Below are positions 16,979 to 23,784 of a stretch of 64,000 nucleotides of DNA, in pieces. Below the pieces are notes generated by a model that searched no databases, was not told the origin of the DNA, and saw only the letters and a program-made list of their open reading frames with translations. Position numbers and translations under genes: made by a program. This stretch comes from Halogeometricum sp. S1BR25-6 (GTDB lineage: Archaea; Halobacteriota; Halobacteria; Halobacteriales; Haloferacaceae): assembly GCF_031624495.1 (NCBI RefSeq), contig NZ_JAMQOP010000001.1, positions 1,116,001-1,180,000 on the forward strand, given 5' to 3'. Every line of letters starts with the position of its first letter. The stretch's first letter is position 1.

Positions 16979-19465
16979 CTACTCTTCGAACCGCTCGGGG
17001 TTCCGCGTCGCTAAGGCGACGTTCACGGCGGTGACGTTCTCCGGCACGTCGTGGACGCGGACGATGTCGGCGCCGCGGTCCGCCGCGAGGGCCGACGCCG
17101 CAGCGGTGGCGACGGGGTTGTCGCCCGCCTCCCTGCCCACGAGTTCGAACATCGACTTGTGCGAGTGGCCGAACAGGAGCGGACAGCCGAGGGCGTCGAA
17201 CTCCTCTAATCTATCGAGTATCTCGAAGTTCTCCGTCTTCGATTTGCCGAAGCCGATACCGGGGTCGACGATGACGTTCTCGCGCGGGACGCCCGCCTTC
17301 TCGGCTAAGAGGATGCGCTCTCCGAGTTCGTCGATGACGTCGTCGACCACGTCGTCGTAGTCGACGTCCTTGCCGGGCACGACGGGGGCGTCGATGCTGT
17401 GCATGACGATGACCGGCACGTCGCGTTCGGCGGCGAGAAAGCGCATCTCCGGGTCTTCGAGGCCGGTCACGTCGTTGAGGATGTCGGCGCCCGCGTCGAG
17501 GGCCGCCTCGCCGACGGCCGCCTTCCGCGTGTCCACGGAGAGCAGAGCGTCCACGTCGGCCAACGCCTCGATGACGGGGACGATGCGGCGAATCTCCTCG
17601 TCGACGGGCACCTCCTCCGCGCCGGGGCGGGTGGATTCCCCCCCGATGTCGACGATGTCCGCTCCCGCCTCGACCATCGCCTCGGCGCGTTCGAGGGCGG
17701 CGGTCGTGTCGTAGAACTCCCCGCCGTCGTGGAAGCTATCGGGCGTGACGTTCAGAATACCCATCACGGCGGTGCCGTCGTTCCACGGGTAATCGGAGTC
17801 GGTCGCGCCGTCGCTCCCCGCCGCGTCGAGGCCGACCCGCGCCCGTACGTCCGCGGCGACGTCGGGCAACCCGTACGGCGCGTCCGCGAGTCGGTCGGTC
17901 AGTTCCGCGAACTCCGAGAGCGTCCCCGTCAACACCACCTCGGCGAGTTCGCCGTCGCCGACGTCCGCCGAGACGGTGCAGTTACCCCCGGTTTCCACCA
18001 TCGCCGTCTCAACGGCGCGCGCCTGACGGCGCTGGAGGGGCAGGGCGACGGTGCGGTGGACGACGTCCTCGCGCGCCTCGGCGACCTCCGCGGTGTCGAC
18101 ATGCGCGCGTTCGAGCAGTCGCCCGGCGTCCGAGCGGTCGCGGACCGTCGGCGACGTGACGACGCGCGTCCACGTCGCGCGCGCCTCGGCGACGAGGAAG
18201 AGCGACCCGAGAGCGAGCACGCAGTCGCCCGGGTCGGCGCGTTCGCGGGCCGACGCGAGCGCCGAGGCCACGTCGCTCCCGACGGTCACGTCCCCGACGC
18301 CGGCGTCCTCGAACACGCGGGCGAGCACCTCCGGGTCCTCCGAGCGGGGGTTGTTCGGCCGGCAGGTGACGACGGTGTCCGGGTCGGGGAGGGCCTCGAC
18401 CATCTCGCGGTGGTCCTTGTCGTGCATCGCACCGAAGACGAGATGCAGGTCCTCGGCGTCGAAGTCGTCGAAGATTGTGGCGACGGACTCGCAGGCGCCG
18501 GGGTTGTGCGCGCCGTCGAGGACGACGTAGGGGTCCGTCTCCATCACCTCGAACCGACCGGGCCAGTGGGCGGTCCGCAGACCGCGTTCGAGCGTCGCGG
18601 CGTCGAGTTCGGTCCCGAGTTCGTCGGCGACCTGCCGGGCGAGCACGCAGGCGATGCCCGCGTTCTCCGCCTGGTACGCGCCGAGCAGCGGAACCCGCCC
18701 GTCGACGCGCCAACCGTCGCCTGCGACGCTGACGGCGGACTCCTGGTGGTTCACACGGCCCTCCGAGCGGACGGTCACGTCCGCACCGTCCGACGCGGTT
18801 CCGTTCGCCCCCTCCGCGGCGACGGTGACGACGTCTCCCGCCCGTTCGCGGACGGTCGAGAGCGCCGCGCCCGTCGTTCCGGTCACGAGCGGTCGGCCCG
18901 CGGGGGCGACGGCGGCCTTCGTCTCGGCTATCTCCTCTACCGTGTCGCCGAGGACGGCGGTGTGTTCGAGCGAGACGTTCGTCACCGCGGCGGCGACGGG
19001 GTCGACGACGCTCGTGGCGTCCAGTTCCCCGCCCATGCCGACTTCGAGCACCGCCACGTCCACGTCGGCCTCCGCGAAGTACCAGACCGACAGCGCCGTC
19101 ATCACCTCGAAGAACGTGAGGGGGTCGCCGTCGGCGGCCCGTTCGAGGAGCCACGGCTTCGCGCGGTCGACGAACTCGCAGACCGCGGCCTCGGGTATCT
19201 TCCGCCCGTCGACGTGGATTCGCTCGCGGAGCGTCTCGAAGTGCGGCGACGTGTAGAGGCCCGCGCTCAGTCCGGCCTCCCGGAGGACCGACTCGGTCAT
19301 CCGGGCCGTGCTCCCTTTGCCGTTCGACCCCGCCACCTGCACGAACGTCACGTCCTCGTGGGGGTCGTCGAACTCGGCGAGGAGCGCCCGAACCGACGCC
19401 GTCCCCGGTTTGACCTGAAACCGGCGGAGGTCGAAGAGGAAGCGCACCGCCTCGTGGTACTGCAT
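16979..19465 (-). CDS. folCP: Bifunctional folylpolyglutamate/dihydrofolate synthase - dihydropteroate synthase
   Basis: 828 residues joining two folate enzymes. Residues 1-425 are FolC (Mur-ligase-like): P-loop GSNGKGSTA near 44-52 and a DGAHNPGA block near 310. Residues 565-828 are FolP: NVTPDSF, DIGGESTRPGAEE, GIGFGKS and GHSHKSMF in order, which bind pterin diphosphate and p-aminobenzoate. The 140-residue middle part is not obviously either enzyme. Such a fusion is experimentally known from Haloferax volcanii. The stop is at 16979 and the start at the ATG at 19465. It is divergent from uspA. Confidence 0.95.
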   Translation of the reverse strand: MQYHEAVRFLFDLRRFQVKPGTASVRALLAEFDDPHEDVTFVQVAGSNGKGSTARMTESVLREAGLSAGLYTSPHFETLRERIHVDGRKIPEAAVCEFVDRAKPWLLERAADGDPLTFFEVMTALSVWYFAEADVDVAVLEVGMGGELDATSVVDPVAAAVTNVSLEHTAVLGDTVEEIAETKAAVAPAGRPLVTGTTGAALSTVRERAGDVVTVAAEGANGTASDGADVTVRSEGRVNHQESAVSVAGDGWRVDGRVPLLGAYQAENAGIACVLARQVADELGTELDAATLERGLRTAHWPGRFEVMETDPYVVLDGAHNPGACESVATIFDDFDAEDLHLVFGAMHDKDHREMVEALPDPDTVVTCRPNNPRSEDPEVLARVFEDAGVGDVTVGSDVASALASARERADPGDCVLALGSLFLVAEARATWTRVVTSPTVRDRSDAGRLLERAHVDTAEVAEAREDVVHRTVALPLQRRQARAVETAMVETGGNCTVSADVGDGELAEVVLTGTLSEFAELTDRLADAPYGLPDVAADVRARVGLDAAGSDGATDSDYPWNDGTAVMGILNVTPDSFHDGGEFYDTTAALERAEAMVEAGADIVDIGGESTRPGAEEVPVDEEIRRIVPVIEALADVDALLSVDTRKAAVGEAALDAGADILNDVTGLEDPEMRFLAAERDVPVIVMHSIDAPVVPGKDVDYDDVVDDVIDELGERILLAEKAGVPRENVIVDPGIGFGKSKTENFEILDRLEEFDALGCPLLFGHSHKSMFELVGREAGDNPVATAAASALAADRGADIVRVHDVPENVTAVNVALATRNPERFEE

Positions 19466-19543
19466 ACGCGAAGGTCACGAGCGTCTCGCTTAGGAGTGTC
19501 GAACCGGCCCACTTCTGCGGGGACTTGCGGACGGATATTCATT

Positions 19544-19570
19544 ATCGAGGGGGACTAAGTCCCCCTCGAT
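19544..19570. promoter_or_regulatory. 27-bp perfect palindrome overlapping the uspA start codon
   Basis: Arms ATCGAGGGGGACT (19544-19556) and AGTCCCCCTCGAT (19558-19570) match exactly around one central base. The ATG of the UspA gene (19569-19571) shares its A and T with the right arm. A TATA-like atattcatta lies just upstream (about 19534-19543), so the palindrome covers the expected transcription start. It could be a repressor operator or a hairpin hiding the start codon. Confidence 0.85.
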
Positions 19571-20006
19571 GTACGACTCGATTCTGGTTCCGACGGACGG
19601 CAGCGAGGGGACGGAGAAGGCACTCGACCACGCGTTGGAGGTCGCCTCCCTCTCGGGGGCGACGGTCCACGCCCTCTCGGTGGTCGACCGGCGACTCTAC
19701 CTCGCGGCGAGCGACGACCAGAAGGACGAGTTGCAGGAATCGCTGCACGACGACGCCGAGGCCGCCGTCGACGACGTGGCCGAGACGGTCCGCGAGGCGG
19801 GCGCGGAGTGCGTCACCGCCGTCCGCGACGGCGTCCCCTACAAGTGCATCCTCGACTACGCCGAGGAGGCGGACGTCGACCTCGTGGTGATGGGGACCCA
19901 CGGGCGCACCGGTCGGGACAAGCTTGCGAGTCTCGGCAGCGTCACCGAACGCGTCGTCGAGAACACCGACCGGCCCATCCTCGTCGTGAGCATCGGCGGG
20001 GAGTGA
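19569..20006 (+). CDS. Universal stress protein (UspA family)
   Basis: 145 residues, single domain. It opens with YDSILVPTDGSEGTEKAL, and the ATP-binding signature G-x2-G-x9-G-S/T is present as GTHGRTGRDKLASLGSV (about 115-131), so it is probably of the nucleotide-binding subtype. Such proteins form cytoplasmic dimers and modulate stress survival. The start codon lies in a perfect palindrome, which suggests tight control. It converges with purN-purH, with a shared terminator candidate between. Confidence 0.9.
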   Translation: MYDSILVPTDGSEGTEKALDHALEVASLSGATVHALSVVDRRLYLAASDDQKDELQESLHDDAEAAVDDVAETVREAGAECVTAVRDGVPYKCILDYAEEADVDLVVMGTHGRTGRDKLASLGSVTERVVENTDRPILVVSIGGE

Positions 20007-20131: not shown

Positions 20132-21709
20132 TCAGTCGTGTCTGAACGACCGCCGGCCGGTGAACGCCATCGCGATGCCGCGTTCGTCCGCGGCGGCGAT
20201 GACGTCCTCGTCGTTCACGGAGCCGCCGGGCTGAATGACGGCCTCGACGCCGGCGTCTGCGGCCTCCTCGATACCGTCCGGGAACGGGAAGAAGGCGTCC
20301 GAGGCCATCACGGTCCCCTCGGGACCCTTGCCCTCGGCGTGTTCCTCGGCCTTCATGGCGGCGAGGCGGACGGCGTCGACGCGGGAGACCTGTCCCATCC
20401 CGATACCGACGGTTTCCGTCCCGTCGGCGAACAGGATGCCGTTGGACTTCACGTGTTTGAGCACCTTCCACGCGAACAGCATCGTCTCCAGTTGCTCGTC
20501 GGTGGGTTCGGTCTCGGTGACGACCTCCAAATCGTCGACGGTCGGGGCCCAGAGGTCGCGTTCCTGCACGAGTCGGCCGCCGACGAGCGGTTTCTCGGTG
20601 AGTCGGTCCGTGCGCTCGCCCAACTCGCCCACGTCCAGCACGCGGAGGTTCTCCTTTCCGGTCAGCACGTCGAGGGCGGCGTCGGTGTACCCCGGCGCGA
20701 CGACGACCTCCTTGAACGAGTCGACGATCAGTTCCGCCGTCTCGGCGTCGCACTCGCGGTTCAGGGCGACGATGCCGCCGAAGGCGCTCATCGCGTCCGT
20801 CGAGAGGGCGTCGGCGTACGCCTCCGCCAGCGAGTCGGCGGCGGCACAGCCGGCGGGGTTGGCGTGTTTGATGACCGCCGCGGCGGGTTCGTCGAACTCC
20901 TTGATGAGGTTGAGCGCGCCGTCGGCGTCGTTGTAGTTGTTGTACGACAGCGCTTTCGCCCCCTCGTTCAGTTGCGCGGCGCGGACGACGGAGGCCTCCT
21001 CGCAGGCGTCGTCGGCGTAGACGGCGGCGTCCTGGTGGGGGTTCTCGCCGTAGCGGAGTTCGGCGGCCTTGTCGTCGGAGACGAGGCGGCGTTCGGGGAA
21101 GTCGCCGCCGCGGTCGCCGTCGACGGTCACCGTCCCGTCCTCGACGTCGACGCGTCCCTCGGCGAACCAGCGGACCGCACGCGGGTACGCCGCGAACTCG
21201 CCCTCGCGGAGGACGCGCCCTTTGAGGGAGTCCTCGTCGTCGTCCTCGTAGACGGGGACGGCCTCCTGGGTGACGATAGGGCCGGCGTCGACGTCCTCGG
21301 TGACGACGTGGACCGTACAGCCGGTGGTGCGGACGCCGGCGTCGAGCACCTGTTCGTGGGCGTCCATGCCGGGGAACGACGGGAGCAGCGAGGGGTGGAC
21401 GTTGAGCGCCGTCGGCGTCCCCTCGACGAACGTCTCGGTGAGGATGCGCATGTAGCCGTCGAGGCAGACGAGGTCGAAGTCGTACCCCGAGAGACACTCG
21501 AGGACGCGGCGCTCGTGGGATTCGCGTGACTCCTCGGCGTCGCGTTCGACGACCTCCGTGGGAATCCCGCGTTCGGAGGCGGCGTCGAGGACGGGGGCGC
21601 CCTCCTCGTTCGCGAGGACGACGGCGAGTTCCGCCCCGCCGGGCGCTCGCTCGTCGATGTGCAGGAGGTTCCGCCCGCGATTGCTCGCCAGACCGGCAAT
21701 CTTGGTCAT
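20132..21709 (-). CDS. purNH: Fused GAR transformylase (PurN) - AICAR transformylase (PurH C-terminal type)
   Basis: 525 residues from the ATG at 21709. Residues 1-195 are PurN-like: LASNRGRNLLHI at the start, and NVHPSLLPSFPG with the catalytic Asn-His region near 109-120. Residues 228-525 are the AICAR formyltransferase domain, opening with LRYGENPHQ and including SYNNYNDADGAL and KHANPAGCA. The IMP cyclohydrolase domain of bacterial PurH is missing; archaea commonly use PurO instead. The protein thus covers two formyl-transfer steps of purine synthesis. It is divergent from purB. Confidence 0.93.
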   Translation of the reverse strand: MTKIAGLASNRGRNLLHIDERAPGGAELAVVLANEEGAPVLDAASERGIPTEVVERDAEESRESHERRVLECLSGYDFDLVCLDGYMRILTETFVEGTPTALNVHPSLLPSFPGMDAHEQVLDAGVRTTGCTVHVVTEDVDAGPIVTQEAVPVYEDDDEDSLKGRVLREGEFAAYPRAVRWFAEGRVDVEDGTVTVDGDRGGDFPERRLVSDDKAAELRYGENPHQDAAVYADDACEEASVVRAAQLNEGAKALSYNNYNDADGALNLIKEFDEPAAAVIKHANPAGCAAADSLAEAYADALSTDAMSAFGGIVALNRECDAETAELIVDSFKEVVVAPGYTDAALDVLTGKENLRVLDVGELGERTDRLTEKPLVGGRLVQERDLWAPTVDDLEVVTETEPTDEQLETMLFAWKVLKHVKSNGILFADGTETVGIGMGQVSRVDAVRLAAMKAEEHAEGKGPEGTVMASDAFFPFPDGIEEAADAGVEAVIQPGGSVNDEDVIAAADERGIAMAFTGRRSFRHD

Positions 21710-21877
21710 GTGAAGAGTGCCTCGGGCCGGGAGAAAAACAGTTGCGGTCCTCGCCCGCCCGATATGCACGTTCGAGCATATAAAACGGGATATGAGCGCG
21801 CGGGCACCCGGAATGTATGCACGAGAGTGGGATAGTCCATCGACACGCTTTTGCGTCACCCGGCGGCATCCTCGCGC
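21710..21877. promoter_or_regulatory. Divergent purN-purH / purB promoter region
   Basis: 168 bp between divergent purine genes. An A-run at about 21732-21739 is placed for a leaderless purN-purH start, and gcttttgcg (21847-21855) is placed for a leaderless purB start. Between them a stronger TATA (catataaaac, 21777-21786) overlaps the inverted repeat ATATGC (21762-21767) / GCATAT (21776-21781), a possible operator for purine control. Confidence 0.45.
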
Positions 21878-23263
21878 ATGGACGACCTCTCCCGCTCGGA
21901 CCCGCTCGCCGCCGTGTCGCCCTTGGACGGCCGATACGCCGGTCGAACCGAACCGCTCGTTCCGTACGCCAGCGAGGCCGCCCTCATGCGCGCCCGCGTC
22001 CGCGTCGAGGCCAAGTACCTGCTGGCGCTCTCGGACCTCGACGCGACGCCGCTGTCGCTCTCCGAGTCGGAGCGCGAGTCGGTTCTGGCGCTCCCCGAGG
22101 AGTTCGACGGCGAGGACGCCCGCCTCGTGAAGCGCCTCGAAACCGAGGGCGCGGCGGGGTACGCCGCGACGAATCACGACGTGAAGGCCGTCGAGTACTT
22201 CATCCGGACGGAGACGGACGAGCGGGTCCACCCGTGGATTCACTTCGGACTCACGAGCGAGGACGTGAACAACCTCGCGCAGCGACTGCTCGCCAAGCCG
22301 GCCGTCGAGGACGTGCTCGTTCCGGCCGTCGAAGACGTCAGAGACGAACTCGCGGCCCTCGCCCGAGAGTACCGCGCGACGCCGATGCTCGCGCGGACGC
22401 ACGGTCAGCCCGCGACGCCGACCACGTTCGGGAAAGAGATGGCCGTCTACGCTGCCCGACTCGGGACGCAACTCGGGCGCGTCAAGGAGGCGGCGGGGGA
22501 ACTGTCGGGTAAACTCGCCGGCGCGTCGGGAACGTACGCGGCGCACGTCGCCGCCTACCCCGAGGTGGACTGGCGGGCGTTCTCCCGCGAGTTCGTCGAG
22601 GGCCTCGGCCTCGAACACACCGCGCTGACGACGCAGGTGAACCCCTGCGACGACCTCTCGACCCTGTTCGACGCCCTCCGCGGCGTCGACAACGTCCTCC
22701 TCGACCTGGACCGCGACGTGTGGCTGTACGTCTCCCAGCGCTACCTCGGACAGGAGACCACCGAGGGCGAGACGGGGTCGTCGACGATGCCGCACAAGGT
22801 GAACCCCATCGACTTCGAAAACAGCGAAGGAAACCTCTCGAAGGCCAACTCCGACCTCTCGTTTCTCGCGGACTACGTGACGAACTCCCGCCTCCAGCGG
22901 GACCTCTCGGACTCGACGGTCAAGCGGAATATCGGGTCGGCGTTCGCCCACTGTCTCATCGGCTACGGGAAGACGGCCGCCGGTCTCCGGAAGGTGGTGC
23001 CGAACGAGCGAGTCATGCGCGAAGAACTGGAAGCCCACCCCGAACTCATCGGCGAGGCGGTCCAGACCATCCTCCGGCGCGAGGGCGACACCGAGGCGTA
23101 CGAGCGGGTGAAGGAACTCACGCGCGGACGCGACGTGACGTTGGAGGACTTCCGCGACCTGTTCGACGAACTCGACGTCGAGGAGTCCGTCCGCGAGGAG
23201 TTGCGGGCGCTGTCGCCGACGACGTACGTCGGACTCGGCGAGGAACTCGTGGACGAACTGTAG
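21878..23263 (+). CDS. purB: Adenylosuccinate lyase
   Basis: 461 residues of the fumarase/aspartase superfamily. It cleaves SAICAR to AICAR and adenylosuccinate to AMP. Conserved regions are VSPLDGRYAGRTEPL at the start, the TRTHGQPATPTTFGKE helix containing the active His (about 170-185), and the mobile signature loop GSSTMPHKVNPID (about 305-317). The ATG at 21878 is preferred because MDDLSRSDPLAAVSPLDGRY is the normal start. It is divergent from the upstream purine fusion gene; fumarate is released in both reactions. Confidence 0.95.
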   Translation: MDDLSRSDPLAAVSPLDGRYAGRTEPLVPYASEAALMRARVRVEAKYLLALSDLDATPLSLSESERESVLALPEEFDGEDARLVKRLETEGAAGYAATNHDVKAVEYFIRTETDERVHPWIHFGLTSEDVNNLAQRLLAKPAVEDVLVPAVEDVRDELAALAREYRATPMLARTHGQPATPTTFGKEMAVYAARLGTQLGRVKEAAGELSGKLAGASGTYAAHVAAYPEVDWRAFSREFVEGLGLEHTALTTQVNPCDDLSTLFDALRGVDNVLLDLDRDVWLYVSQRYLGQETTEGETGSSTMPHKVNPIDFENSEGNLSKANSDLSFLADYVTNSRLQRDLSDSTVKRNIGSAFAHCLIGYGKTAAGLRKVVPNERVMREELEAHPELIGEAVQTILRREGDTEAYERVKELTRGRDVTLEDFRDLFDELDVEESVREELRALSPTTYVGLGEELVDEL

Positions 23264-23784
23264 GTCTGGGCTCGGGTCCACGCCGGATTCGGAGGACGGG
23301 GAGACGGTCCCCGTAGAATACTCGGCTACTGATAGTTCATCGGAGGGTGGTGGATACAGCGCGCGAGTCGGTCACAGGCTCGGCACCTGTCTGAGAGAAC
23401 CGAATCGCTCAAAACAGGAAGGGCCGCAAGTCGTTCGAGACGTGGGACGTACGGCAACTTGGTTCGGTCATGCAAGTGACTCTGCCAAACCGTTATCCGG
23501 CTCTGTTACGAATATCTGAGTAACGGAACTACGGCTGCGCACTCTGTGTTCGCGCCCCCCAAGATGAAGGGGCCATTTGAACCGGGATACCCGGTTGAGG
23601 AGGCAGTCTCCTCGTTCACCTCGCGTGGGAGTCACGCGGAACATATCATTCAGAACGCTTGTTCCGCAACAGCATCAGTCACGCATGACAGTACCCGCGT
23701 ATCCAACTCATAGAACCGACAGTACACCCCGGTCGTCGGACAGCTCGTCCGTCCACCCATTCACCGCTTGGAGGAGAAGCCCCG
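23264..23784. other. Gene-free region with an inverted-repeat array
   Basis: 521 bp after purB with lower GC than the neighbours. I see no gene. Short words and inverted repeats dominate the second half (23505-23665), detailed separately. The last 100 bp lead to the HTH gene at 23785. Confidence 0.5.
23505..23665. repeat. Array of six consecutive inverted repeats
   Basis: In order: GTTAC/GTAAC (23505-23524), CCCC/GGGG (23557-23572), AACCGGG-ata-CCCGGTT (23580-23596), GAGGAG-gcagt-CTCCTC (23597-23613), CGCGTG-ggagt-CACGCG (23622-23638) and GGAACA/TGTTCC (23638-23665). The third and fourth abut exactly. Such packing suggests a folded RNA or a complex protein-binding site upstream of the HTH gene. 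Confidence 0.75.

Follow-up and report, generated by a model that had tools for sequence, protein, structure and literature searches.

The universal stress protein gene (usp) at 19569-20006 (+) of the window, by which we mean the whole 64-kb stretch of DNA analysed, encodes a 145-aa protein that matches the Usp profile PF00582 over residues 1-140 (117.3 bits against a curated cut-off of 24; E 9.9e-34). Its start codon, ATG at 19569-19571, lies partly within a 27-bp perfect palindrome at 19544-19570, ATCGAGGGGGACT-A-AGTCCCCCTCGAT, a symmetric feature to which no strand is assigned. The two 13-nt arms (19544-19556 and 19558-19570) are 100% complementary and flank a single central base at 19557. 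Relative to the usp ATG the palindrome runs from -25 to +2, its final two bases being the A and T of the start codon. The exact arms and single central base over the start of usp described in the original prediction were thus verified. At the centre lies the motif TAAG (19556-19559, +; -13 to -10), where a haloarchaeal promoter has its -10 'WW' element; in orthologues this position is often CGAA or GAA.

The upstream neighbour is divergent. An 828-aa open reading frame at 16979-19465 (-) carries Pfam domains that make it a fusion of Mur-ligase-like and pterin-binding parts, presumably of folC type and folP type respectively. Its ATG is 103 bp from that of usp, and its start region could be aligned in all five Halogeometricum loci. 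Downstream of usp, a long open frame at 20132-23281 (-) resembles PurN/PurH-type purine enzymes by eye; a Pfam scan of 20132-21800 gave no match, probably because the scanned stretch started out of frame.

Promoter geometry and the predicted transcript

The TATA-like sequence TATTCATT at 19536-19543 directly precedes the palindrome, as had been predicted. Congener alignment and the A+T peak of the orthologues place the TATA-like box of usp, TATTCATTA, at 19536-19544 (+), which is -33 to -25 from the ATG. Two of the congeners have TATTAATTA as their box and the other two have GTTGATTA.

To describe this region more widely we used 30 orthologous loci, of which five come from Halogeometricum and the other 25 from different genera within the family. 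Paralogue loci were kept out of these counts, as were eight further genomes that had matches but no locus. H. pallidum was present twice (L004 and L019), and L004 alone was counted. A separate set of 80 protein-matched loci was screened for upstream palindromes and kept out of the counts, several of them being genes among the 25.

An A+T-rich, TATA-like box is present some 30 bp upstream of the ATG in all 30 orthologues. Their A+T content is high from -33 to -26, with maxima at -30 (0.97), -29 (0.93) and -27 (0.83); between -13 and -10 there is a lesser A-rich spot. The A+T-richest 7-mer begins between -35 and -28 in every orthologue when ties are included, and is untied in 24 of the 30. From the position of the box, the usp transcript is predicted to be leaderless, starting at or next to the ATG. 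Such a start would be in keeping with passages of PMC4983044 on Haloferax volcanii, according to which 72% of protein-coding transcripts are leaderless and about 80% of the leaderless transcripts begin exactly on the start codon. The same source describes a haloarchaeal promoter layout of a TATA box followed by a -10 'WW' element. The suggestion that the palindrome covers the transcription start and the start codon together is supported as geometry, with the transcription start a predicted one.

A predicted leaderless start would leave the palindrome almost wholly upstream of the transcript, and its stem would be absent from the RNA. This bears on the proposal of a translational switch, in which the AUG would be hidden by a hairpin in the 5' leader. 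If the strand were transcribed it could form a 13-bp stem, and a folding energy of -26.9 kcal/mol for the 61-nt stretch that contains the stem (z -2.9 relative to shuffled sequences) would make the hairpin stable. A leader of 25 nt or more would be needed for the hairpin, however, while the A+T-richest 7-mer of all 30 orthologues puts the start at the ATG, most H. volcanii leaderless transcripts begin at the start codon in the passages cited above, and the stem shows no covariation. When compensatory changes were sought against H. pallidum and the nearest congener (G002), none was found: all five differences in the former and the one in the latter break pairs. Despite the strong fold we therefore rejected an RNA switch as the main reading, the conserved promoter geometry predicting a leaderless transcript, and we consider it very improbable. 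In haloarchaea with leaderless transcripts, a hairpin upstream of a gene will usually lie outside the mRNA.

Rarity, recurrence and conservation of the arms

In 464 kb of sequence from the own genome, namely the 64-kb window and 20 stretches of 20 kb, no other perfect inverted repeat has arms of at least 13 bp and a gap of up to 6. Those 20 stretches contained no perfect repeat with arms of 13 bp or more, the longest being two of 12 bp. In six genomes simulated under a first-order Markov model, matched in size and dinucleotide make-up, the mean number of palindromes with such arms was 0.33 at gaps of up to 1 and 2.0 at gaps of up to 6; scaled to 64 kb, the expectations are about 0.005 and 0.03. 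The palindrome is thus unusual for a single window but unremarkable across a whole genome or a scan of many windows. Its placement over a core promoter is rarer still, by a rough estimate no more than a few per cent per genome, and we counted this in favour of a function.

The function originally predicted for the DNA was that of a strong repressor-type operator. In a species-restricted form of this idea, a homodimeric repressor would occupy the 27-bp dyad, which separates the TATA-like box from the start site, and would block RNA polymerase or open-complex formation; stress would release usp. The perfect dyad stands at a promoter position suited to steric repression and is rare in the genome. 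The search for further sites, however, found one only: the own genome has no second copy of the full palindrome with up to 3 mismatches, at other promoters or elsewhere, and across 170 family genomes the same threshold matched only the own site and its orthologue in G002. A single genomic copy would still suit an operator that has one target gene. Looser patterns were slightly above their reversed-pattern controls. With one mismatch, the half-site occurred 10 times outside the two arms and its control 2 times; with up to 2 mismatches, the 15-bp core occurred 19 times, the own site included, and its control 10 times. No regulator gene was seen beside the palindrome among the flanking genes inspected.

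A regulon shared among Usp genes was also considered and rejected. The own genome has 34 further Usp matches, and at the 29 whose loci we examined the start region held no perfect inverted repeat with arms longer than 7 bp; where the Usp match did not begin at residue 1, as with second domains of tandem genes, the stretch examined was that near the domain start. A literature search found nothing on this site, judging by titles or abstract openings.

Other palindromes were seen upstream of usp elsewhere in the family. In genus g9 (L115-L117, L119 and L120), probably Haloferax, a different 13-bp palindrome, ACACCGACGGTGT, lies at -46 to -34, just upstream of the usp TATA-like box. Among the 9 g9 genomes with a usp orthologue at E <= 1e-50, 7 carry exact ACACCGNCGGTGT in that place; it is common to closely related species and hence no proof of constraint. 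A single genome of genus g26 (G164, locus L118) has a 19-bp palindrome, CGGTGTCGATTCGACACCG, at -56 to -38, also upstream of the usp TATA-like box, with 9-bp arms around one central base.

Conservation of the arms in close relatives was run as the refuting test. In the same register, against 13 of 13 matched arm positions in the own genome, G002 has 12 (Usp protein 95% identical to the own protein), H. pallidum (G003) 8 (93%), G004 3 (85%) and G001 6 (83%). The arms are thus kept in one congener of four and degraded in a second, while the remaining two are at or near the mean of 3.7 found for background registers. Orthologues from the 25 loci of other genera have 2 to 9 matches. Over the 27 orthologues outside the own genome, G002 and H. 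pallidum, the mean is 4.22 against a background-register mean of 3.70. Two g26 loci, L114 and L118, reach 8 and 9 of 13 in the same register and a third (L122) has 5; among background registers, 2.3% have 8 matches or more. Across the five congeneric genomes and the 25 others, the dyad was therefore not kept in the orthologous promoters beyond that of G002. With arms that fade within the genus and no second genomic copy, a conserved operator is unsupported.

The spacer between the TATA-like box and the ATG did not evolve more slowly than the neighbouring intergenic DNA in any of the four congeners, with no Fisher p below 0.10. Differences in the spacer and in adjacent intergenic sequence were 5/25 and 6/69 for H. 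pallidum (p 0.15), 14/25 and 25/69 for G004 (p 0.10), 13/24 and 25/69 for G001 (p 0.15), and 1/25 and 5/69 for G002 (p 1.0). The G002 usp gene differs from the own gene at 37 of 435 positions, with 12 of 13 arm matches kept. Its single spacer difference in 25 is slightly low compared with third codon positions (30/145, Fisher p 0.05), which leaves room for a weak recent constraint on the spacer in G002.

Taking these results together, we think the operator, restricted to the own species or to it and G002, possible but on balance unlikely. The nearest congener retains nearly all of the dyad, but it is not kept in the other three, where the gene, its neighbour and the TATA-like box are; the own genome offers one site, and the aligned congeners show no compensatory changes.

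Origin of the palindrome and known counterparts

The explanation that we think probable is that the palindrome is a recent inverted repeat, restricted to one lineage, that it lies in the spacer of a predicted leaderless promoter, a stretch under weak constraint, and that it has no dedicated regulatory role. The palindrome would lie between the TATA-like box, at -33 to -25, and a predicted transcription start at or next to the ATG, and its most likely origin is either point changes or the correction of an earlier quasi-palindrome on a hairpin template. Several things stand against this explanation: the position and the perfection of the palindrome are jointly improbable, the few spacer differences of G002 leave room for weak recent constraint, two of the three g26 loci show partial symmetry, and the half-site and core matches are slightly above controls. 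The site was chosen for its perfection, so recent changes towards symmetry are expected from the selection of the example alone.

Hairpin-templated mutation of a quasi-palindrome, one candidate origin, would copy one arm from the other during replication, whether or not the product was later used; as a proposal about origin it overlaps with the recent, lineage-restricted repeat that we prefer. In H. pallidum this register holds an 8/13 quasi-palindrome. It differs from the own sequence at five columns, three of which (18, 21 and 22 of 27) cluster in a 5-bp part of one arm. At four of the five (2, 18, 21 and 22) G004 has the H. pallidum base, a hint that symmetry is the more recent state. PMC8794818 documents the perfecting of stems by template switching. 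However, G002 keeps a mismatch (C at column 9 against C at column 19) that would be unexpected after a clean arm copy unless changed later, and column 2 lies in the opposite arm, so at least two events would be needed. G004 and G001 differ at more than half of the spacer columns, and their alignment is therefore uncertain. We regard hairpin templating as a rather unlikely origin for the palindrome.

Symmetry that arose recently could also have been put to use. A newly evolved operator at the level of the species would be a quasi-palindrome perfected in one Halogeometricum lineage, at which a dimeric regulator blocks both initiation and the leaderless AUG. This seems improbable to us. If it were true, the locus would be a snapshot of the birth of an operator in archaea, and any true operator here would mean that a regulatory site was born within the genus, with living relatives at 8/13, 12/13 and 13/13. 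The preferred reading, a recent repeat without a dedicated role, carries a caution instead: a perfect palindrome on a start codon may be recent and local.

The site can be set beside three known systems. Like the dyad operators of archaeal homodimeric repressors, it has dyad symmetry over the (here predicted) transcription start. Unlike them, it is kept in one congener only, has no second copy and has no known cognate regulator; its perfect 13-bp arms exceed the typical length of an archaeal dyad operator. It shares with the quasi-palindromes made by template switching, as described by Monttinen and Loytynoja (2022, PMC8794818), an imperfect form in a relative, a perfect form here and the clustering of differences in one arm. 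It departs from them in the mismatch of G002 and in having a change in each arm, which does not amount to a single clean copy. In layout it resembles the leaderless haloarchaeal promoter, for which passages of Babski et al. (2016, PMC4983044) give a BRE/TATA-like box, a -10 WW element and a start at the ATG. The usp promoter shares its TATA-like box, some 30 bp upstream of the ATG, and has an A-rich centre at -13 to -10, both conserved among orthologues. What sets it apart is the spacer flanking the -10 element, which in its own lineage is mirror-symmetric.
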